From Treponema sp. (GTDB lineage: Bacteria; Spirochaetota; Spirochaetia; Treponematales; Breznakiellaceae), in the NCBI GenBank assembly GCA_009787695.1, contig WQSW01000013.1, positions 12,076 to 53,945 on the forward strand: a DNA stretch of 41,870 bases, in the 5' to 3' direction. Shown here piece by piece: positions 78-22,586 of the stretch. The position numbers and the translations under genes are program-made. A model generated the notes under the pieces. The model was not told the origin of the DNA. It did no database searches and saw only the letters and a program-made list of their open reading frames with translations. Within the stretch, counting starts at the first letter, position 1; each line of letters begins with the position of its first letter.

Positions 78-1439
78 ATGTTATTTACACCGTTTGAAAT
101 TAAAGAAACTGTTGATATGTTTCTTCGCTATAAATTGGATATCCGCGCTATTACCTTAGGTGTTTCTCTTTTAGATTGCATTTGTTCGACAGGGGAGGCT
201 ACACGCAAAAAGATACGGGAAAAACTCTTACGAGTTGCAGGCCCTCTTGTTAAAACAGGCTGTGATATTGAGACCGAATACGGCATTCCGATTATAAATA
301 AAAGAATTTCTGTCACTCCGATTGCAATTGCCGCTTCATCAAGCGATGAAGAAGATTATACCCCTTTTGCAAAAATGTTAGACGAAACTGCAAAAGAGCT
401 TAATGTTGATTTTATCGGAGGATTTTCCGCTCTTGTTCAAAAAGGAATTTCAAGCGGTGATGAAAAGTTAATCCGCTCCCTTCCTTCAGCTTTATCTCAA
501 ACTGAACAAGTCTGCGCTTCTGTTAATGTTGCTTCTTCAAAAAGCGGTATCAACATGGATGCAGTGCGCCTAATGGGACAGACGATAAAAAAAATAGCAG
601 AGGCGACATCTGACAGAGACGGCATAGGCTGCGCAAAACTTGTCGTTTTTTGCAATGCCCCTGAAGATAACCCTTTTATGGCAGGCGCTTTTCACGGAGT
701 GGGGGAGGCGGAAAGCGTTCTTAATGTAGGTGTTTCAGGTCCCGGTGTAATAAAAGCCGCTTTAGAAAATTGCCGCGATGCAAACTTTGATGTGTTAGCC
801 GACACTATTAAAAAGACAGCGTTTAAAATAACACGCATGGGGCAGCTTGTTGGGATGGAGGCTGCAAAACGTATCGGCGTGCCTTTCGGCATTTTAGATT
901 TATCTCTTGCACCGACACCCGCAGTGGGAGATTCAGTTGCCCGCATCCTTGAAGAAATGGGGCTTGAAAGTGCAGGCACACACGGAACGACAGCAGCCCT
1001 TGCAATGTTAACCGATATGGTAAAAAAAGGCGGCATCATGGCATCAACTCATGTGGGCGGTTTCTCCGGCGCTTTTATTCCCGTCTCAGAAGACGAAGGC
1101 ATGGTTGCCGCAGTAAAGAGCGGCTGTCTTTCTTTAGATAAATTGGAAGCGATGACCTGCGTCTGCTCAGTTGGGCTTGATATGATTCCGCTTCCCGGTG
1201 ACACTTCCGCTCAGACGATTTCCGCAATCATCGCAGATGAGATGGCTATCGGTATGGTGAACAATAAAACTACCGCTGTGCGCGTCATCCCTGTTCCCGG
1301 AAAAAAAGCGGGTGAATGGGCAGAGTTCGGGGGTCTCTTGGGCGGCTCTCCTATAATGGCGGTAAACTCTGCAAAGAGCGATATTTTTATAAACCGCGGC
1401 GGAAGGATACCTGCGCCTTTGCATAGCTTTAGGAATTAG
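78..1439 (+). CDS. UPF0210 (DUF711 / 'PFL family') protein
   Basis: This 453-residue protein has the usual full length of UPF0210. The N-terminus ([20 protein letters not shown]) and the glycine-rich C-terminal part ([14 protein letters not shown] near the end) fit the family throughout. The family is named for structural resemblance to the pyruvate formate-lyase barrel, but no reaction is established for it. No signal peptide or membrane segment is seen, so it should be cytoplasmic. It lies 18 bases after the ACT-domain (UPF0237) gene, the standard partner, so the two are likely co-transcribed and may work together. The start at 78 is preceded only by a weak purine stretch (GAAGAAAAG). The family call is confident; the function is unknown. 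Confidence 0.92.
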
Positions 1440-3959: not shown

Positions 3960-4760
3960 ATGGATAAAATAAAATTTGAAGAATATTTAAATTATCAGCC
4001 CAAAAAATATGAAAACGCTTTATATTATACAATGAATTTATTTTATATCTCAAGTTGTATAATTTTAATGATATTATCATGGAAATATTTTCCTGTAGTA
4101 CAAAATATAATCTTTAATAAAGAGAATGATATTGTTTTCTCATTGTATTCAGTAGGTATTTTTTCTATTGCTTTATTCTTTTTAGCAATAGTTGTAAATT
4201 ATTTTATTTTTTATAAAATATTTTCATTAATTAAAGATTTTAAAAGAACAGTTATATATTATGATATACTAGGATCGAAAACAAGAGATTATAATATTTA
4301 CTTAAAGAAAGATAAAGCAAGTATTATTTTTATTATTGTTCTAATTGTTTTATCGTTGTTTTTTATACTTACTTCCATGTTTGTGCATTTAAGAATGAAC
4401 GATACAGGAATATATTATAATAAAATGTTTAATTTCAAAGAACAATATTACAGCTGGAGTGAATTAAAATCAGTATCAATTTATCCTAAAATTTCCAGAG
4501 GTAAAAATAAAAATTTATCCCCCGAATTTATTTTAGAGTTCGCAGAAAAGAAAATAGATATTTGGGACGGCGCAGGTCTTGGCTCTCCTGATGCTGATAT
4601 ATTAATAAAAACAATAAAAATGATAAATAAAAATACATCTTTAAAAATAAATAAAACAAGTGAATTTAACGATGAAGTGTTGGATTTATTATATAATAGT
4701 TCAACAAAAACGAAAAGAAATAATATAATTAAAGTTTTTGATTATTTAAATAAAATGTAA
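3960..4760 (+). CDS. AT-rich membrane protein of unknown function, three predicted TM segments
   Basis: I do not recognise this 266-residue protein as a named family. Three hydrophobic segments lie at about residues 25-45, 58-85 and 120-142. The remaining soluble half begins with a pattern (NDTGIYY ... YYSWSELKSVSIYP) reminiscent of bacterial PH-like domains, which often follow membrane hairpins; this resemblance is weak. The gene is visibly more AT-rich than its neighbours, with long A/T codon runs, which could mean recent acquisition. A perfect TATAAT (3948-3953) ends six bases before the ATG, and there is no Shine-Dalgarno sequence, so the mRNA may be leaderless. It ends seven bases from the converging ABC transporter gene. 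Confidence 0.6.
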   Translation: MDKIKFEEYLNYQPKKYENALYYTMNLFYISSCIILMILSWKYFPVVQNIIFNKENDIVFSLYSVGIFSIALFFLAIVVNYFIFYKIFSLIKDFKRTVIYYDILGSKTRDYNIYLKKDKASIIFIIVLIVLSLFFILTSMFVHLRMNDTGIYYNKMFNFKEQYYSWSELKSVSIYPKISRGKNKNLSPEFILEFAEKKIDIWDGAGLGSPDADILIKTIKMINKNTSLKINKTSEFNDEVLDLLYNSSTKTKRNNIIKVFDYLNKM

Positions 4761-4767
4761 AAAAATA

Positions 4768-6573
4768 TTATTCTTTGTACTGAGCCAAACATAAATCATA
4801 ATACCTGCCTTTAAGAGCCATCAGCTCTTCATGAGTGCCGCTTTCAACAATTTCTCCGTCAGAGATAAACAAAATTTTAGTGCAGTTTCTAATCGTAGAA
4901 AGACGGTGTGCAATTATAAAAGAAGTGCGTCCTTTCATGAGTGTTCGGATTCCCTCCTGCACAAGCTGTTCTGTACTTGTGTCGATACTGCTTGTCGCTT
5001 CATCTAGGATTAAAATTCTCGGATTGGAAATAAGTGTGCGTGTGAAAGCCAAAAGCTGCCGCTCTCCTGAAGAAATGCCGCCGCCTCTTTCTGTAATTTC
5101 TGTGTCGTAGCCTTGAGGAAGTTTTTCTATAAAGTGGTTTGCACCTAATGTTTTTGCTGTTGCGCGTATTTCTTCGTCTGTGGCATGAAGTTTCCCGTAA
5201 CGGATGTTATCTGCAATAGTTCCTGTAAATAAAAAACTGTCCTGCAGCATAATACCCATTTGGCTTCTTAGCGAGTGAAGCGTTACTTTCATTATGTCCT
5301 GTCCGTCAACTAAAATCTGCCCTTCTTCGATATTATAAAAACGTGAAAGAAGATTAACTATTGTTGTTTTTCCGGCACCTGTAGGACCTACAATTGCAAT
5401 ACTTTGCCCGGGATGAGCGTTAAAACTAATATTTTTAAGGATTTTTCGCTTCCCGTCATAACTAAAAAAAACATTTTTAAATTCAACATGCCCTCTTACA
5501 AAAGGAAAAGCTGTCGCATTCGGGACATCTTGTATCGTTATAGGCTCTGCGATTGTATCAAAAATCCTGTCAAGATACGCCATCGCTGTTATAAATGTAT
5601 TATAAATATTTGCAAGGTTAATAATCGGCTGCCAGAAACGCCATGCATAATTTCCCATAACAAGCAGCATTCCAAAACTTGCCATAGGGTTCATCCAGTA
5701 TACCCCCATAATATATACAAATGACCATACAAGCTGGCTTATCGATTCTGTGGAAAACCAAACCGTGTTGGAAATATAAATCGCTTTCATCCATGCATGA
5801 TTGCGCTCTTCTGTAAGGTTGCTCATAATATCAAGATTTGTTTTTTGTCTGTCAAAAGCCTGCGTTACGCGCACACCGTCAATCGATTCCTGAACATAGG
5901 CGTTTAAGTTTGCCCCTTTATTGCTGACAGCCTGCCAAGCGCGTCTTTGTGCAGGTTTTATAGTCCAAATAAAAAGCGCAAGAAGCGGAAGACCGATAAC
6001 TGTCACCGTTGCTAAATGAGGATCAACTTGATACATAAAGAAAATAATAAAAAATATATTCAACACTTCTATTACAAAGTTAATAATCCCGTTTGATAAA
6101 GCATCAGATACGCTGTTTACATAGGGAACGACACGCACAAATATTTTGCCGTGAGGTCTTGAGTCAAAAAAATTAAAAGATAATTTTTGTAAATGAGCAA
6201 ATAAATCCTGCCTTATATCATGAATGATACCTGCTCCTGCTTTTGCAACAAGAATATTTCTGATTGTGCTTAACGCAACGCTGATAATAATAGAAGCTGT
6301 TAAATACACTCCCATCATGAAAAGTTGTTTTACATCTTTATTGGGGACAGCTTCATCTAAAGCTGTTTTTATAAAAAGAGGTCCGACAAGGGATGCGATA
6401 CTTGAAAGAATACTGAAAATCAAAGAAAGTTTTAAATGCCCTTGCGCTTTAATTAAATATCCTAAAACACGCTTTACATTAAAAAGACTTACCTTCTCGT
6501 CAAGGTATTCGTCAACATCATAACGGTTGCGTTCTTTGGCGGTTTTTTGTTCGCGTTTTTTCCTCCAAAACAT
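4768..6573 (-). CDS. ABC exporter half-transporter, subunit with the catalytic Walker B (heterodimer partner B)
   Basis: This 601-residue protein has an N-terminal exporter membrane domain (six TM segments, about residues 40-330) and a C-terminal ATPase. Walker A is GPTGAGKTT (near 399), Walker B ILILDEATSS (near 521) with the catalytic Glu, and the switch His is in FIIAHRLS (near 552). Its signature motif is degenerate, ISSGE instead of LSGGQ. The partner encoded immediately upstream has the opposite pattern, so the two should form a heterodimer with one competent and one degenerate ATP site, like the TM287/288 and BmrC/BmrD exporters. The start ATG directly follows the partner's TAA; a GGAGGG inside the partner's end serves as its ribosome binding site. 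The substrate is unknown; drugs, lipids or peptides are possible. Confidence 0.92.
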   Translation of the reverse strand: MFWRKKREQKTAKERNRYDVDEYLDEKVSLFNVKRVLGYLIKAQGHLKLSLIFSILSSIASLVGPLFIKTALDEAVPNKDVKQLFMMGVYLTASIIISVALSTIRNILVAKAGAGIIHDIRQDLFAHLQKLSFNFFDSRPHGKIFVRVVPYVNSVSDALSNGIINFVIEVLNIFFIIFFMYQVDPHLATVTVIGLPLLALFIWTIKPAQRRAWQAVSNKGANLNAYVQESIDGVRVTQAFDRQKTNLDIMSNLTEERNHAWMKAIYISNTVWFSTESISQLVWSFVYIMGVYWMNPMASFGMLLVMGNYAWRFWQPIINLANIYNTFITAMAYLDRIFDTIAEPITIQDVPNATAFPFVRGHVEFKNVFFSYDGKRKILKNISFNAHPGQSIAIVGPTGAGKTTIVNLLSRFYNIEEGQILVDGQDIMKVTLHSLRSQMGIMLQDSFLFTGTIADNIRYGKLHATDEEIRATAKTLGANHFIEKLPQGYDTEITERGGGISSGERQLLAFTRTLISNPRILILDEATSSIDTSTEQLVQEGIRTLMKGRTSFIIAHRLSTIRNCTKILFISDGEIVESGTHEELMALKGRYYDLCLAQYKE

Positions 6574-15770: not shown

Positions 15771-16448
15771 TTAAAATAAAAGCACTATTAACACAAAGAA
15801 GAAAAATACTATCAAAATACCTGCAATTGTTTCAAAAAGAATGATATTCATAACATTGTTATATTGAAATCTTGTAATATCAGCACCGACTAGTCCAAGA
15901 AATTCACCTGTATCTTTGTGAAAAATAGGCGCGTATGCTGAAAGCCTTGTACCATATTCAGTGTCTTCAAAGTTAATACCGGATGTTGGAAGCATTTTAT
16001 CATAAGCCTCTTTGTTTGCGGCGACAAGCGTATCTTTAACGCCGGGCGCGGTATACTCAGGGCTTGATGGGTCTTCGCCGCCGATAACATACATCATCAT
16101 GTCATTATCAATGCGCGTTTCAGTGTAAATATAAGTCACTTGGTCTGTATTAGCGCGTTTTATATTCATCATTAATTCTTTTGTACGGCTGTAATAATCC
16201 GATTCCATATCAAGTGTATTAAGAAAATTTTTATAACCCTCTGAATCAGATGCGATAACCGAAGCTACTGTTAATGCAACGGATTTGCATTTAAAAACTA
16301 ATTGTTCTCTGAGTATATTAGAAGCAAAATTATATGATATTATACCTGTAATTAATTTTAAAATACAAAACACGGAAGCGATCATAATAATTTGCAGTTT
16401 GGTGCGCTTTTTTCTTTTATCATCTGTTGAATTTATGCTGCTTTTCAT
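15771..16448 (-). CDS. Free-standing membrane sensor protein with Cache-like extracytoplasmic domain, no output domain
   Basis: This 225-residue protein has a basic cytoplasmic start, a TM segment at about 18-41, an extracytoplasmic domain at about 42-198 and a second TM segment in the last 26 residues. The extracytoplasmic part contains VTYIYTETRID, YVIGGEDPSSPEY and SAYAPIFHKDTGEFLGLVGADI, the pattern of Cache/PAS-like ligand-binding domains normally found in receptors. Here the protein stops right after the second TM segment, so no kinase, cyclase or chemotaxis output exists. It begins 35 bases after the kinase gene on the same strand, suggesting it feeds signals to that kinase. A receptor truncated by genome rearrangement is the alternative, since rbfA converges six bases downstream. 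Confidence 0.75.
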   Translation of the reverse strand: MKSSINSTDDKRKKRTKLQIIMIASVFCILKLITGIISYNFASNILREQLVFKCKSVALTVASVIASDSEGYKNFLNTLDMESDYYSRTKELMMNIKRANTDQVTYIYTETRIDNDMMMYVIGGEDPSSPEYTAPGVKDTLVAANKEAYDKMLPTSGINFEDTEYGTRLSAYAPIFHKDTGEFLGLVGADITRFQYNNVMNIILFETIAGILIVFFFFVLIVLLF

Positions 16449-16483: not shown

Positions 16484-17782
16484 TTACTGTTCGCTCTGTT
16501 TCCAAACAGCAAACACATTGAACCACTTGTTGTCATACTTTATATGAAACATCTCGCCGAAACTGCCGATAACCGCCATAACGCTTTCAAGTCCGATCCC
16601 GCAAGCAATGTTTAATCCGTTATCTTTTGTGCTGATAAACTTTTCTCCGTCCAGAACAACCTCTCCGTTATATGTATTACGCAGCATAATTGTAAGCTGT
16701 TCCCCTTGCGGTTTTACGACAAGTTTTATTTGCCGTTCGTTTTCAATTTTAAGACAGGCTTCCACAGCATTTTCCAATAAGTTTCCAAGTACAATACACA
16801 TCTCATAATTCATCACTTTAAAATCAGGGGGTATATTAATTAAAACATTAAAATCTATATTTAATTCTCTGCACTTTCTTGCGTAATCTGCAATAAGAGA
16901 ATTAATTACAGGGTTATCGCAAAAATTAAGAAGTTCATTTTCTTCTAACTTGTTTTGTAACCCTATTAAATATTCATTGCTTTTTTCAGTTTCACCCCTG
17001 CGAAGCATATCAAGCGCGGTGTTAAGATGAAATTTATAATCATGCCTCATAATTTTTAAGACATCATACTGTTCATTCATTTTTCTGTAATGTTCTCTTC
17101 CTGTAGAAATAATATCACGCGCAAAATCGGCTTCATACTTTTGTTTCATTCTTTCGTGAGTGTTGATGATAGCAAAAAGCAAAATAAAAAAGCTCCAAAT
17201 AACAAAAGACATAATTACTAATGCCATTGTCAAATTAGATTGAAATAAAGGAGGTATAAATTCTAAAATAAGCCATGAAGCGGCTGCACTTAACAAATAT
17301 ATTATCCACTCCTTTTCATGTCCGTAAGCAAACACTTTTTTAAAAAGTTTTCTCCCTAATTTTAATACAAGTAATAAATAAATAAAATATAAAATAAATG
17401 TTATTATAATAAGCATTAAATAAGTTATATGTTCTCCGTACGGAATAAAAAAGTCTGAGAGTGTAATTCCCAGTAAGCGTAAAAAAGAAATTATTGTCAT
17501 TAACATAAAAAAGGCGAACATTCTTTGAAACAGCAATTCCTTAAAAAGTAAAATAACCAGCGGAAGGTATAAAAAAGATTGAAATATTTTGATTTTGTCA
17601 TTTAATTCAAAATATCCGTTTAAAATTAATGAAATATTTAATATTCCGCTGGCTAAAGTTATAATTGCAAAACTATTTATTACAAAAAAAAATGATTTTT
17701 TATAGGTCAGACAAAGCATCAAAACGAAAACACTTGTAAATACAGAAAAGAACGGAACAATAATTAATGCTATTTCTTTCAT
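16484..17782 (-). CDS. Sensor histidine kinase, AgrC-like (multi-TM plus GHKL ATPase)
   Basis: This 432-residue protein has about seven hydrophobic segments in its first 215 residues, followed by a cytoplasmic kinase. The phospho-acceptor motif MRHDYKFHL (His near 244) is the type found in AgrC/HPK10 kinases. The ATPase shows an N-box GNLLENAVEAC (near 330) and a G-box GIGLESV near 400, typical of the GHKL HATPase domain. Kinases of this class pair with LytTR regulators, and the regulator gene directly upstream overlaps it by four bases. There is no AgrD-like peptide gene nearby, so peptide sensing need not apply. The separate Cache-like membrane protein encoded next may supply the ligand-binding function. 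Confidence 0.88.
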   Translation of the reverse strand: MKEIALIIVPFFSVFTSVFVLMLCLTYKKSFFFVINSFAIITLASGILNISLILNGYFELNDKIKIFQSFLYLPLVILLFKELLFQRMFAFFMLMTIISFLRLLGITLSDFFIPYGEHITYLMLIIITFILYFIYLLLVLKLGRKLFKKVFAYGHEKEWIIYLLSAAASWLILEFIPPLFQSNLTMALVIMSFVIWSFFILLFAIINTHERMKQKYEADFARDIISTGREHYRKMNEQYDVLKIMRHDYKFHLNTALDMLRRGETEKSNEYLIGLQNKLEENELLNFCDNPVINSLIADYARKCRELNIDFNVLINIPPDFKVMNYEMCIVLGNLLENAVEACLKIENERQIKLVVKPQGEQLTIMLRNTYNGEVVLDGEKFISTKDNGLNIACGIGLESVMAVIGSFGEMFHIKYDNKWFNVFAVWKQSEQ

Positions 17783-18489
17783 TGCATATCCTTTTCCATT
17801 ACCCGCATATAATATTGATCGCTGAACTCTTTATAACTTCTTGAGATAGGCACTTTTCTGCCGCATCGTAAAATTATTTCTTTGCCGCGAATTTGTGTAA
17901 CAGCGTCAATATTAACCACATAAGACCTGTGGCATTGAGCGAAACGTCCGTCTGATGTTAACTGCGGCAAAATATCACCTAATGAAGCGAATATTACAAT
18001 TTCACTTCCGTCCAATAAACGAAAATAAACATTTTTATTTATTACTTCTACAAAAGAAATTTCATAAAAATAAACAAACCTTGTTAAATTTCTGGTTTCA
18101 ATTTTAATTCCTGCATTATCTTCGATTGGAGAAGTATTTTTAATTTCATTTAACAACCGTACAACATCTTTTGTATTAATAGGTTTTAATAAATAGAAGT
18201 AAGCTTTTACCTGATACGATTCAACTCCGTAATCTTTAGAAGTAGTAAGAAAAACAATTTTTCCGCCAAAACCTTCTGCACGCATTTTTCTTGCAAGCTC
18301 GATCCCGTTCATTTCCGGCATAATAATATCCAGAAAACAAACATCAATTTTTACATTTGTTTTTATATATTTAAGAACATCTTGAGGCTTAAAAAAATAC
18401 ATAACATTAGCTTCAAGGTCTGCTTCTTTTACAGCATTTTGCAGCTTAAGGGCTTCATCGCGAATATCATCGCAAATGAGAATATTCAT
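17779..18489 (-). CDS. LytTR-family response regulator
   Basis: This 236-residue protein has a receiver domain (about 1-120) with acidic residues D7-D8 and the phospho-acceptor Asp54 in CFLDIIMPEMNG. A LytTR DNA-binding domain follows (about 137-232), marked by IETRNLTRFVYFYEISFVEV and by RFAQCHRSYVVNIDAV. LytTR proteins bind pairs of short direct repeats about 21 bp apart and usually activate transcription. Such repeat pairs occur at 18560-18600 and 19172-19213, ahead of the two neighbouring surface-protein genes. The 158-base divergent region to the next + strand gene therefore probably serves both directions, so autoregulation is possible. It is translationally coupled to the kinase gene. 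Confidence 0.92.
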   Translation of the reverse strand: MNILICDDIRDEALKLQNAVKEADLEANVMYFFKPQDVLKYIKTNVKIDVCFLDIIMPEMNGIELARKMRAEGFGGKIVFLTTSKDYGVESYQVKAYFYLLKPINTKDVVRLLNEIKNTSPIEDNAGIKIETRNLTRFVYFYEISFVEVINKNVYFRLLDGSEIVIFASLGDILPQLTSDGRFAQCHRSYVVNIDAVTQIRGKEIILRCGRKVPISRSYKEFSDQYYMRVMEKDMQ

Positions 18490-18538: not shown

Positions 18539-18600
18539 CTTATGTGTTTTATCCGCAAATTCAAGTGCATTTTACGCCGTTTCAAGTGTATTTTGCTCTG
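18539..18600 (+). promoter_or_regulatory. Direct repeats with 21-bp spacing: candidate LytTR operator of the outer-membrane protein gene
   Basis: TTCAAGTGCATTTT starts at 18560 and TTCAAGTGTATTTT at 18581, exactly 21 bp apart, so they face the same side of the helix. A poorer third copy, CTTATGTGTTTTAT, starts at 18539 in the same phase. This spacing is the known geometry of LytTR-family sites, and the regulator gene begins 50 bases to the left. On the other strand the core reads CACTTGAA, loosely like the AgrA half-site CAGTTAAG. A CATAAT -10 candidate lies at 18640-18645, 59 bases after the start of the second repeat. Confidence 0.7.
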
Positions 18601-18647
18601 TTTAATTTAAAAACCGCTTTTATTACTTTCTATCTTTGACATAATTA

Positions 18648-19172
18648 ATGATGCGCTTTTTATTAATTTTAATTTTTTTTATAGGAATGAATATACCATT
18701 ATTTGCTCAGGAAGAAGAAGAAAAGTCTGTTTTGCCGTCTGTACCTGTTAAAAGCGAGGAATTTTGGTTTTGCCCGAGTGCGGAAATTGCATTATACAGC
18801 GAATATAGTTTTTCATACGGAGCAGGCTTTGCAATAGCTTTCGGGAAAAAAACATCTTTCGGGCTGAAAGGAATTTTCTTTTTTGACGAAGCGAATGTAC
18901 TTGATGTATTGGAATTACATATTCTTTTACGTTTGTATCTTTTTAAAGGAACTTCTAACAATGGTCCGTTTTTTCAGTTAACAGGAGGGCCTGCGATTTT
19001 CTTTCCCAGAGAATTTGAAATTGTTCTTCCTGCTCAAATCGGTATGTTTTCCGCATGTTTAAGTTTCGGCTGGCGTTTTATTTTGGGAAAAAACTTTTTC
19101 ATTGAGCCTCAGGTTCGAGGCGGTTACCCCTTCTTAGCCGGAGGTTCTGTCTCTGCAGGGCTAAGGTTTTAA
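18648..19172 (+). CDS. Small outer-membrane beta-barrel-like protein
   Basis: This 174-residue protein starts with a signal peptide (MMRFLLILIFFIGMNIPLFA, probable cleavage before Q22). The mature part has alternating hydrophobic strands with Gly and aromatic residues, and it ends in SVSAGLRF with a terminal Phe, the usual signal for outer-membrane barrel insertion. I do not recognise a specific family. The start could be ATG 18648 or the adjacent ATG 18651. There is no Shine-Dalgarno sequence, and a CATAAT at 18640-18645 would start transcription at about 18651, giving a leaderless mRNA. The 21-bp repeats upstream suggest control by the adjacent LytTR regulator. Its stop touches the second repeat pair. 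Confidence 0.75.
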   Translation: MMRFLLILIFFIGMNIPLFAQEEEEKSVLPSVPVKSEEFWFCPSAEIALYSEYSFSYGAGFAIAFGKKTSFGLKGIFFFDEANVLDVLELHILLRLYLFKGTSNNGPFFQLTGGPAIFFPREFEIVLPAQIGMFSACLSFGWRFILGKNFFIEPQVRGGYPFLAGGSVSAGLRF

Positions 19173-19213
19173 TCACTTGTCTTTTGCGCCGTTTCATGTG
19201 CATTCTGCTCCAT
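19172..19213 (+). promoter_or_regulatory. Second 21-bp direct-repeat pair: candidate LytTR operator of the lipoprotein gene
   Basis: ATCACTTGTCTTTT starts at 19172 and TTCATGTGCATTCT at 19193, again 21 bp apart. Stretches around it match the first operator: GCGCCGTTTCA against ACGCCGTTTCA between the half-sites, and CTTTTATTA 35-36 bases after each second half-site. A TACAAT -10 candidate at 19252-19257 lies 59 bases from the start of the second repeat, the same distance as CATAAT in the first operator. The resemblance suggests both genes answer to the same regulator. Confidence 0.7.
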
Positions 19214-19301
19214 TTTGCGGAAATTCACTTTTATTAACTTATTTTCCTTAATACAATAAAACTACAATTAAAATCACGCAAGAAAGAGGCAAAAACCAGA
19301 A

Positions 19302-22300
19302 ATGAAACGATTTTACATCGTTCAAATTCTTTTTTCTCTGTTCATTTTTTCTTGCGCTAACCCCCTGATCACCCATATTGCCGAACCAAAAACTGTTTCT
19401 TTTGAAACAAACGGCGGCAGTAAGATTGATGATCAAATTATCTACCTTAATTATCCGATCCAGCGTCCCGGCGATCCTTCAAAAACTGACTTTAATTTTG
19501 ATAATTGGTACATTGATAATTCTACATTTGAACAATTGTGGAACTTTAGCTCAATACCTAAGACCGATATTACGTTATACGCAAACTGGATACCTTTAGA
19601 AACAGATATTGACAACGATACTACAGGCAGCGGCACTCAAGACGATCCTTTCTTAATTTGGAATGCAGATGATCTTCGCGCTATAGGACGCGGTATGTAT
19701 CTTGATTTGGACCGGCCGCTTGACGCTCATTATAAATTGATGGCTGATATTGAGCTTCCTGTACCGTCTGCACAAATGAGTAACTGGACAAAAATTGAAG
19801 GGGTATTTACAGGCGGCTTTGACGGTAATGGGCATATTATCAAAAATATGACGATTAACGTTCCAACTGATATACAGGCAAATCAAGGAATGTTTGATAT
19901 TATTGCAGATAGCGGCTATGTAAAAAATCTCGGACTTGCCGATGTAAGAATCTCAGGTCATAGCGCGCCGGAACTTGACAGCGGGATTGGCGGTATTGCG
20001 GGAAATATCGCAGGAAGCAACGCTTCAATTTCTAATTGTTTTGTAACAGGTGAAATTACCGTTTTTGCTTCTGTAGAAAGTATTTGGACGATTACAGGCG
20101 GAATAGCGGGATCGATAACGGAAGGAGCGAAGGTTTCAAATTGTTACACTAATGTTGTCATAAAAGGCGGGTTTGCAAGTAACGGATATTACGGTAGTTT
20201 TATAGGCGGCATAGCCGGTTTTAACGACGGTATAATTGAAAACTGTTATGCGAAAGGAAGCGTAATCGGTTTCTACCTTATCGGCGGAATTGCAGGGGCT
20301 GTAAATGATACAGGCATAATTACCAATTGTATCGCATTAAACAGCAGTGTAAGGTTAACGGTTACGCAGCCCACCCAATTAGGGCGTATAACAGGAGATA
20401 ACTTCGGCGCTCTTAACGGTAACTTTGCATTTAACAACATGGAAATAATGCGTGCCTCATCAATTAAAACCGGCATCGGAAACGCGGAAAATCATATAGA
20501 CGGGCTTGGCGTGTCAGCGGAAAATATTAAAACGCAATCGCAGTGGTTAGGTGCAAATTTCACCTTCGCCGGCAGCGAAGAATCTCCTTGGGTGTGGGAA
20601 TACGGTAAAATGCCGCGCTTGTGGTTTGAGGAAACGGGATCGAATTGGTCATCGCATTTAATTGACCCTGTCCCCTCTGTTTTTGTAAGCAAAGACGGCG
20701 GCGCAGATGAACAATATTTTAACCTGTCATCAGCGTTAGACGCAATTACTGCGGCGGGAGATTATATTGTAACGATAAGCGAAGATCAAATGATTTCAAA
20801 TAGAACATTTGCCATTGCTGATACTAATATTACTTTTATCAGTTCAGGCGCAGAACGAAAGATCCAATACAGTGGTTCTGCCTCTTCGTCAATGTTTACA
20901 TTAAATACTGCCAATACATCACTCACCCTTTCTAATAATATCACTTTAAACGGTATTGAAAGCTCAGGAACGGCAGCCCTTATCAGTATTACAAACGGCA
21001 CTTTTAGAATGCAAAGCGGTTCAAAAATTACAGGGCTTAACTCAATGAGCGCGGGGGGAGCTGTTAACATAAGCGGGACAAATGCGCGATTTAATATGGA
21101 AGGCGGAGAAATCAGCGGAAATAATACAAACGCTGCCGCAACCAGTACTGATGTAAACGGAGGCGTTACACTGCGGACAGGTTTCTTTAACATGAGCGGC
21201 GGAAAGATAACGGGAAACACTCATCAAGGTTCAAACAATGCGGATGTTTACATTGCTTCTACTGCTGTCGGTGCATTTACTCTTTCAGGAAATGCACAAA
21301 TCGGCACTCTTAAATTAAACGCAACATCGGCTTCCGCTTTAGCTTTTGTAAACATTTGTTCAACTTTTACAGGCAGCGTATCAAAAGTCAATCTAAGAGG
21401 AAATACCAGTACCGGAAATGATAACGGCTTTGAACTTATCATGACATGGTGGAATGATAAGGCAATACTGACAGGAGCGCAAGGATATTCTGTTACTGGT
21501 ACAGATGCGAACAGATTTACACTGGGGCTCTTTTTATCTAACGCAACAAGCAATAATACAGCGTCAATTATGCCGGTATTCGCAATCGGCAATTCAGGCG
21601 CGGATACAGGGAAATTAATATTGACAGATAACGCGCCTGTCATTCTAAACAATATTACAACAGGCGAAAAAGTGCGTTATCTGACATTCTATAATGCGAT
21701 TAATGCGGCAAGAACAGAAGGAACGGATTATTTAATAACGCTTAACATGGATCAGACAATGAGAAATCAGCCGTTAACTGCCGCTAATGTAAACATAACG
21801 CTTACCGGTGCAGGCGCAGAACGTACCATTCAATACAACGGAACTGAGAATCAAACATTATTTACGTTAAACGCAAACAACACAAGCCTTACGCTGGATC
21901 AAAATATAACATTAAAAGGTATCAATAACAGTTCGGCAAATCTTATCAATGTTGCTAACGGAAAACTTATCATGCGCGAAGGTTCAAAAATTACAGGTCA
22001 CTCCACTACAAATGCAAGCGGAGCTGTTAATATTTCAGGAACAAATGCTTATTTTGTCATGGAAGGCGGCGAAATAAGAGGAAACAATTCGTCTACCGCC
22101 GCAACCAGTATAAACGCAAACGGAGGAGTAACACTCGGCTCAAGCGGTTTCTTTACGATGAGCGGCGGTATTATAATGGATAACACGCATGGAACAGCGG
22201 CAGCGGATATTTACATTTCAAATAACAGGGTTGACAGTTTCACTCTGTCAGGTAATGCGCAAATAGGAACACTAAAGTTAAACGCTACCGGTCTTAGTAT

Positions 22301-22586
22301 AGGAGTTTCCAATTCTTCAAGCATAGCAGTCGGATCGGGCTTCACAGGAAGCGTTACATCACTCAATCTTGTTAGCAGTAATTCTTCTGATATAAATACG
22401 GTCATCGGTTATTGGAAGGACAGACCTATATTGACAAGCGCGGCAGGACACACACTTACTTCCGCAGATATTGGAAAAATACAATTTAAAAACTTCTTTG
22501 CAGTTAATTACGAAAACACTCAGTCAATTAATTTATCGCATGAATTAATCCTTGAAGCGCCTAATGCTGTGTTAAGGCAAAAGTAA
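19302..22586 (+). CDS. Large surface lipoprotein with InlB-like, GLUG and beta-helix-type repeats
   Basis: This 1094-residue protein begins with a lipoprotein signal peptide; the lipobox FIFS-C puts the lipidated Cys at residue 18. Residues about 31-95 (VSFETNGGS ... ITLYANW) form a Listeria/Bacteroides InlB-type repeat. Residues about 225-345 contain four GLUG-like units, each with GGIAG followed by a Cys (for example GGIAGFNDGIIENCY). From about 460 to the end there are two related copies of a roughly 315-residue domain rich in GSKITG, GGEISGNN and SGNAQIGTLKLNA, suggesting parallel beta-helix folding. Such architecture points to an adhesin or surface-binding protein; no catalytic motif is seen. 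GAGG upstream gives a moderate ribosome site. Regulation by the neighbouring LytTR protein is likely. Confidence 0.85.
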   Translation: MKRFYIVQILFSLFIFSCANPLITHIAEPKTVSFETNGGSKIDDQIIYLNYPIQRPGDPSKTDFNFDNWYIDNSTFEQLWNFSSIPKTDITLYANWIPLETDIDNDTTGSGTQDDPFLIWNADDLRAIGRGMYLDLDRPLDAHYKLMADIELPVPSAQMSNWTKIEGVFTGGFDGNGHIIKNMTINVPTDIQANQGMFDIIADSGYVKNLGLADVRISGHSAPELDSGIGGIAGNIAGSNASISNCFVTGEITVFASVESIWTITGGIAGSITEGAKVSNCYTNVVIKGGFASNGYYGSFIGGIAGFNDGIIENCYAKGSVIGFYLIGGIAGAVNDTGIITNCIALNSSVRLTVTQPTQLGRITGDNFGALNGNFAFNNMEIMRASSIKTGIGNAENHIDGLGVSAENIKTQSQWLGANFTFAGSEESPWVWEYGKMPRLWFEETGSNWSSHLIDPVPSVFVSKDGGADEQYFNLSSALDAITAAGDYIVTISEDQMISNRTFAIADTNITFISSGAERKIQYSGSASSSMFTLNTANTSLTLSNNITLNGIESSGTAALISITNGTFRMQSGSKITGLNSMSAGGAVNISGTNARFNMEGGEISGNNTNAAATSTDVNGGVTLRTGFFNMSGGKITGNTHQGSNNADVYIASTAVGAFTLSGNAQIGTLKLNATSASALAFVNICSTFTGSVSKVNLRGNTSTGNDNGFELIMTWWNDKAILTGAQGYSVTGTDANRFTLGLFLSNATSNNTASIMPVFAIGNSGADTGKLILTDNAPVILNNITTGEKVRYLTFYNAINAARTEGTDYLITLNMDQTMRNQPLTAANVNITLTGAGAERTIQYNGTENQTLFTLNANNTSLTLDQNITLKGINNSSANLINVANGKLIMREGSKITGHSTTNASGAVNISGTNAYFVMEGGEIRGNNSSTAATSINANGGVTLGSSGFFTMSGGIIMDNTHGTAAADIYISNNRVDSFTLSGNAQIGTLKLNATGLSIGVSNSSSIAVGSGFTGSVTSLNLVSSNSSDINTVIGYWKDRPILTSAAGHTLTSADIGKIQFKNFFAVNYENTQSINLSHELILEAPNAVLRQK
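20680..22560 (+). repeat. Tandem duplication of a ~950-bp segment inside the lipoprotein gene
   Basis: The protein segments encoded by about 20680-21600 and 21625-22560 align along their length. Shared landmarks in the same order include AERxIQYxG, SLTLxxNITLxGI, GSKITG, AVNISGTNA, GNAQIGTLKLNAT and FTGSV. The DNA copies have diverged, so this is an old duplication of one beta-helix-like domain. The boundaries are approximate. Confidence 0.8.

Follow-up and report, generated by a model that had tools for sequence, protein, structure and literature searches.

Tandem 21-bp repeats beside a LytTR two-component system as predicted operators of surface-protein genes in treponemes

LytTR systems and the treponeme locus

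LytTR regulators bind 9-bp direct repeats that are mostly 12 bp apart (a 21-bp period), lie 4-11 bp upstream of the -35 element and are conserved in spacing while divergent in sequence (PMC6193735); the sites of AgrA centre near -60 (PMC4227749). The treponeme locus described here resembles AgrA of Staphylococcus aureus and HdrR/BrsR and other LRS of Streptococcus mutans in having same-orientation repeats with a 21-bp period. As with AgrA and HdrR/BrsR, the sites adjoin the regulator gene, centre near -60 and immediately precede a promoter whose -35 element is weak or poorly spaced (PMC6193735, PMC4227749). Unlike the Gram-positive AgrA, HdrR and BrsR sites, those at this locus have TTTTACGCYGTTTCA as half-site, precede treponeme outer-membrane protein and lipoprotein genes, and in some operators comprise three units.

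Two further systems invite comparison. Like AtcSR of Treponema denticola, the locus encodes a LytTR response regulator and a membrane histidine kinase without a known sensor domain in a treponeme host (PMC12070737), whereas AtcR promoters have been reported at other genes (such as fliK, an ABC transporter and Hpk2/Rrp2). BtsR and YpdB of gamma-proteobacteria are likewise LytTR response regulators with few target promoters and a motif conserved across species (PMC5552118), but they respond to pyruvate and each governs a single transporter gene, whereas the kinase here consists of a membrane region and a GHKL domain. AtcR has been called the only LytTR protein in spirochetes (PMC12070737). LytTR genes are present in 25 of 40 genomes of the genus studied here, so this view does not hold and regulators of this type are common among spirochetes of the genus. 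Many of these genes are short, LytTR-only open reading frames of about 150 codons, one of which lies in the genome under study (contig C103, 2116-2403). The type of switch, LytTR direct-repeat operators, is already known and the target set is new: these are very probably sites of a known regulatory kind in bacteria where such sites are little described.

The window, the whole 41,870-nt stretch of Treponema sp. DNA that was analysed, holds the locus as a block inside an otherwise housekeeping stretch (infB, rbfA, truB, rpsO and pnp, judged from translations). The genes of the block are:

15771..16448, minus strand: 225-aa protein with apparent terminal membrane helices (by eye) and without a Pfam domain, third gene of the operon
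16484..17782, minus strand: sensor histidine kinase with an N-terminal membrane region and a GHKL ATPase domain (PF14501, E=7e-15)
17779..18489, minus strand: response regulator with a receiver domain (PF00072, E=7e-17) and a LytTR DNA-binding domain (PF04397, E=1.5e-13), proposed to bind the repeats
18648..19172, plus strand: predicted outer-membrane beta-barrel protein (OMP) of 174 aa, signal peptide by eye, with orthologues in the related genomes G169 and G166 and C-terminal similarity in G170
19302..22586, plus strand: predicted lipoprotein of 1094 aa with Listeria-Bacteroides repeat and GLUG motifs; the order OMP, operator, lipoprotein is also found in G169

The match to the LytTR domain exceeds the cut-off for PF04397. 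An LRS is recognised by a receiver-less regulator and a membrane inhibitor protein; the regulator here has a receiver domain and is paired with a GHKL kinase, which places it outside that class. No match to AgrB was found among the five local proteins scanned. The 225-aa protein has the look of a lone membrane sensor. Its homologues in G166 and on G170 contig C94, with 80-83% identity, likewise adjoin this kinase, and it may be a sensing partner of the kinase, which has only membrane helices.

Predicted repeat operators and promoters in the window

Two operators occupy the intergenic regions of the block: op1 precedes the OMP gene and op2 the gene for the 1094-aa lipoprotein.

18539..18559, plus strand: degenerate third 21-bp unit upstream of op1, an in-register match with 3 mismatches (PWM 30.3)
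18560..18601, plus strand: op1, two 21-bp units
19172..19213, plus strand: op2, two 21-bp units, whose first base is the last base of the OMP stop codon

A sequence-only reading of the window had proposed two pairs of repeats with 21-bp spacing next to a LytTR regulator gene, and its coordinates proved correct to the base. In op1 the half-sites are TTCAAGTGCATTTT at 18560 and TTCAAGTGTATTTT at 18581, in op2 they are ATCACTTGTCTTTT at 19172 and TTCATGTGCATTCT at 19193, and both pairs are spaced by exactly 21 bp. The same reading had put the regulator gene 50 bases away, which is true when counted from 18539 to the regulator start at 18489 (minus strand); from the first good unit the distance is 71 bases.

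The two operators are identical at 32 of 42 bases, a value reached by none of 500 shuffle pairs of the same regions (mean 23, maximum 28). Self-repetition at 21 bp was also significant against shuffles, with P<0.0005 in the first region and P=0.02 in the second. Lone half-sites with up to 2 mismatches number 49 in the window against 34 expected, at most a slight enrichment; it is the paired arrangement that is significant, and single half-sites are unremarkable. Genome scans were done with sequence patterns and profile models. When up to 3 mismatches were allowed, the pair pattern matched, in the full 2.82-Mb genome, op1, op2, the degenerate unit (18539/18545) and one weak match elsewhere, while the reversed pattern, run over the same 2.82 Mb as a control, gave no match. 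A repeat search of the window at default identity returned nothing, because the copies are imperfect.

The half-site that had been read from the window, TTCAnGTGnnTTTT, turned out to be an artefact of register. Similarity between op1 and op2 spans the entire 21-bp unit (TTCANGTGCATTTTRCGCYGT), so this half-site is one arbitrary slice of it, and across species conservation is best at TTTTACGCYGTTTCA. An ungapped alignment of seven operators has TGCATTTTACGCYGTTTCANGYGCATTYTGCKCYGTTT as its conserved block, with information content peaking around TACGCYGTTTCA. The best-conserved part of op1 is:

18570-18584, plus strand: TTTTACGCCGTTTCA

The classical LytTR half-site has the consensus [TA][AC][CA]GTTN[AG][TG]. 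We tried this consensus as a means of setting the half-site register and discarded it as indecisive: the match is too weak, the best register scoring 5.9 of 9 against a background of 4.4, with other registers almost equal. The register of a tandem repeat, which in some operators runs to three units, cannot be fixed from its sequence alone.

Downstream of the repeats, the two promoters are laid out alike:

18617..18622, plus strand: CTTTTA at the -35 position of op1, non-consensus, 17 bp before the -10 box
18640..18645, plus strand: -10 box CATAAT of op1, 59 nt past the start of unit 2
19252..19257, plus strand: -10 box TACAAT of op2, 59 nt past the start of unit 2

Both the common distance of 59 bases from the second half-site to the -10 hexamer and the presence of CTTTTATTA at 35-36 bases had been noted from the window, and we verified both, with CTTTTATTA at 18617 (+36) and 19228 (+35). 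Of 17 operators, 12 have a -10 box within one 4-nt interval, at 57-60 nt counted from where unit 2 starts, and shuffles reached at most 7; when a single operator was kept per gene group, 8 of 10 had it there (shuffle maximum 5). Three more of the 17 have their -10 box at 48 nt, one helical turn nearer. The -35 position is usually held by a T-rich run, not TTGACA, and this recurs at many operators. From the end of the unit 2 core to the -35 position there are about 11 bp, so that the repeats lie just upstream of the -35 region. At op1 only 2 nt separate the end of the -10 box from the first ATG of the OMP gene (ATG at 18648/18651), and the predicted signal peptide requires this first ATG. The OMP message would therefore be leaderless or nearly so, unless the true start or the promoter is a different one.

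Repeats and regulators in related genomes

Close orthologues of the regulator occur in unfinished Treponema genomes, several of which, to judge from isolate names such as Co191 and Emb289, may be termite-gut metagenome bins. G170, G169 and G166 each have the same 40-bp element, in unchanged orientation, upstream of their orthologous regulator; the repeats are thus present upstream of orthologous genes beside the same two-component system, as the sequence-only reading had anticipated. In G170 a second copy of the element directly precedes a barrel-protein gene. In G169 the element stands between a barrel-protein gene and a Flg_new lipoprotein gene with the repeat domain of the window's lipoprotein, which is the arrangement of the window, and the first operator, by the regulator, heads an apparent operon for a nucleotide cyclase, a FecR-domain protein, a barrel protein and an OMP (L116:5308-10208, minus strand). 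The same four genes follow in the same order on another contig of G166, then a degenerate repeat and a lipoprotein gene (L251:4-4568, plus strand). Since the OMP gene comes directly after op1 in the window and an operon takes this place in G169, we infer that the target genes were rearranged while the operator stayed put.

With a first trained profile, an additional operator was found in the genome of the window itself, before another lipoprotein gene on contig C27. The proposal of a probable local regulon of OMP and repeat lipoprotein is therefore supported as to its targets and wrong as to its extent: at least one further operator on another contig makes the regulon wider than local, and a purely local regulon is ruled out. 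The first profile also found operators in G165 and G171 and further sites in G169. Cyclic-nucleotide-binding proteins are encoded behind some of them in G169 and G171, an HD-domain protein in G165 and a membrane protein of unassigned role in both G165 and G171, while several others stand before lipoprotein genes. The cyclic-nucleotide gene in G169 and on contig C93 of G171 comes after a lipoprotein gene related to that of the window. Homologues about 50% identical to the HD-domain protein exist in the other five operator-bearing genomes, none of them at a listed operator match. From its gene content, the regulon seems to join the surface with second-messenger signalling.

A second profile, built from 19 operators and run over 200 genomes of the family, gave matches below 1e-4 in only six; weak matches (E from about 5e-4 up), scattered over other genera, were treated as noise. 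Four of the six operator-bearing genomes have a regulator of at least 64% identity, and every genome with such a regulator has an operator (4/4), a co-occurrence with a probability of about 2e-7 (hypergeometric, calculated by hand and ignoring kinship). The association of operator and regulator that the sequence-only reading had proposed to look for in relatives thus held wherever a close regulator was found and broke down in G165 and G171, which have clear operators and in which no intact regulator was found (assemblies 86% and 70% complete, respectively). The only LytTR gene in G165 is receiver-less, and G171 gave no LytTR match. On contig C3 of G165, a stop-interrupted fragment of the same kinase remains about 70 bp from an intact operator (L157:5551-5688, minus strand, and 5761-5800, plus strand). 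This remnant suggests that the two-component system was recently lost here while its operator persisted, or else that another copy is missing from the assembly. A frameshifted receiver-like match on contig C28 of G165 was considered as a regulator remnant and not counted, as it could be a generic receiver. Extra copies of the system do exist: contig C94 of G170 (L125:848-887, minus strand; 892-1035, plus strand; 4308-6423, minus strand) carries a second one, cut by the contig end, and also a 48-codon regulator fragment directly beside an operator that faces a lipoprotein gene. In G161, whose regulator is 59% identical, no recognisable operator was found.

More distant regulators have a diverged 21-bp repeat of their own. 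We searched the regions upstream of 11 regulators for direct repeats, trying each spacing between 15 and 31, and the pooled score is exceptional at 21 (123, where shuffles reached no more than 111); the seven distant regulators alone show the 21-bp periodicity with P=0.003. In G152 the diverged repeat TACACGATTTCAAGGGCGATTTACACGAT has two copies genome-wide, one before the regulator and the other before a lipoprotein gene. In G177 diverged repeats are found only at regulator loci and at two lipoprotein loci, and one of these lipoproteins again has a Listeria-Bacteroides-type repeat (by eye). Relative to the genes they precede, the G177 repeats are oriented opposite to the operators of the window (L119, L120, L230).

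A predicted surface-protein switch and alternative readings

Because a small group of related treponemes has the same sites before genes for surface proteins and signalling, the repeats are very probably docking sites of the neighbouring LytTR regulator, as predicted from sequence comparison. We consider it likely that the adjacent response regulator recognises the 21-bp direct repeats as its DNA-binding site and that it acts as a phosphorylation-dependent activator of surface-protein genes. The membrane GHKL kinase would phosphorylate the regulator, which would then occupy two consecutive units on the same side of the helix. From there, some 45 to 90 bp ahead of the transcription start, it would bring RNA polymerase to promoters with a good -10 box and a merely T-rich -35 position. 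The OMP gene would be switched on through op1 and the repeat-lipoprotein gene through op2, together with at least one additional lipoprotein gene at another place in the genome. Since op1 lies between the regulator gene and its divergent target, it may also set the expression of the regulator. While the repeats, their conservation, their positions and their association with this regulator clade are observed, we infer binding, phosphorylation dependence, activation rather than repression, and autoregulation. Several observations weigh against this reading: the clear operators of G165 and G171, where no intact regulator was found, the G161 regulator with no recognisable operator, the weak agreement of the half-site with the classical consensus, the near-absence of a leader at op1 and the reversed repeats of G177. 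The proposal connects outer-membrane and lipoprotein genes with a two-component system by way of a conserved promoter architecture, and it supplies a testable predicted binding motif and target set for LytTR regulators of uncultured treponemes, whose surface regulation is little known.

A regulator that binds the repeats could instead repress, or mainly regulate itself, with the OMP and lipoprotein genes being secondary or oppositely controlled. The operators sit in the gap that separates the regulator gene from its divergent neighbour, the G177 repeats are oriented towards the regulator side, and autoregulation is central in many LytTR systems (PMC6193735), all of which would suit such a role. 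We nevertheless judge it unlikely, since operators also stand before genes distant from the regulator, keep a constant distance to the -10 box on the target side, and are placed upstream of the promoter rather than overlapping it.

It is rather improbable that the repeats are operators of another regulator common to the six genomes, with the LytTR gene a mere neighbour and possibly a target. The well-conserved operators of G165 and G171, where an intact regulator was not detected, and the variety of signalling genes that follow operators in relatives would fit this explanation. It is countered by the operator that every close orthologue has at the same intergenic position by the regulator, by the diverged repeats with the same 21-bp period in the same place at diverged regulators, by the broken kinase remnant retained at the G165 site, and by the 21-bp period of LytTR sites themselves (PMC6193735). 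Finally, no more than about 610 bp separate op1 from op2 and their resemblance extends past the repeats to the -10 box and CTTTTATTA, yet a recent promoter duplication or a functionless chance repeat is scarcely credible, given that shuffles exclude chance and that the element is kept in separate species and at unrelated genes, a conservation that contradicts mere local duplication.

Beyond activation by the regulator at its operators, we tentatively entertain a broader possibility: one LytTR two-component system may control a regulon of surface proteins that gains and loses members from species to species (OMPs, repeat lipoproteins, the cyclase-FecR-barrel operon, cyclic-nucleotide-binding and HD-domain proteins), while an undescribed covarying leader RNA is present on some of the lipoprotein messages as well, so that the surface would be set by an operator together with a riboswitch-like element.

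The leader RNA was noticed because the third operator, on C27, led to its gene. It is a 66-nt element before the C27 lipoprotein gene (G000:C27:37892-37957, equal to L231:1501-1566) and its homologues (L232-L250), and none was found in the window. It is predicted to fold, about 35 nt ahead of the start codon, as a closed three-way junction with a conserved AAACC...GGTTT stem and a CGTTG-type hairpin loop. A model built from three copies found 19 copies in 16 genomes of 8 genera when searched against 394 genomes of the order, and a weaker-scoring extra copy from a search of the genus brings these to 20 copies in 17 genomes. Among the 20 copies, 92.7% of pair cells are standard pairs, against about 50% or less in slid versions, and two-sided changes occur in 17 of 21 pairs (77 cells against 23 in shuffles), counts that lean towards the structure to which the alignment was fitted. 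In the loci scanned no Rfam family matched the element, which may merit study by itself. The genes downstream of it encode mostly predicted lipoproteins. Several copies adjoin a TATACC...GGAGGTATA stretch that could hide the ribosome-binding site.
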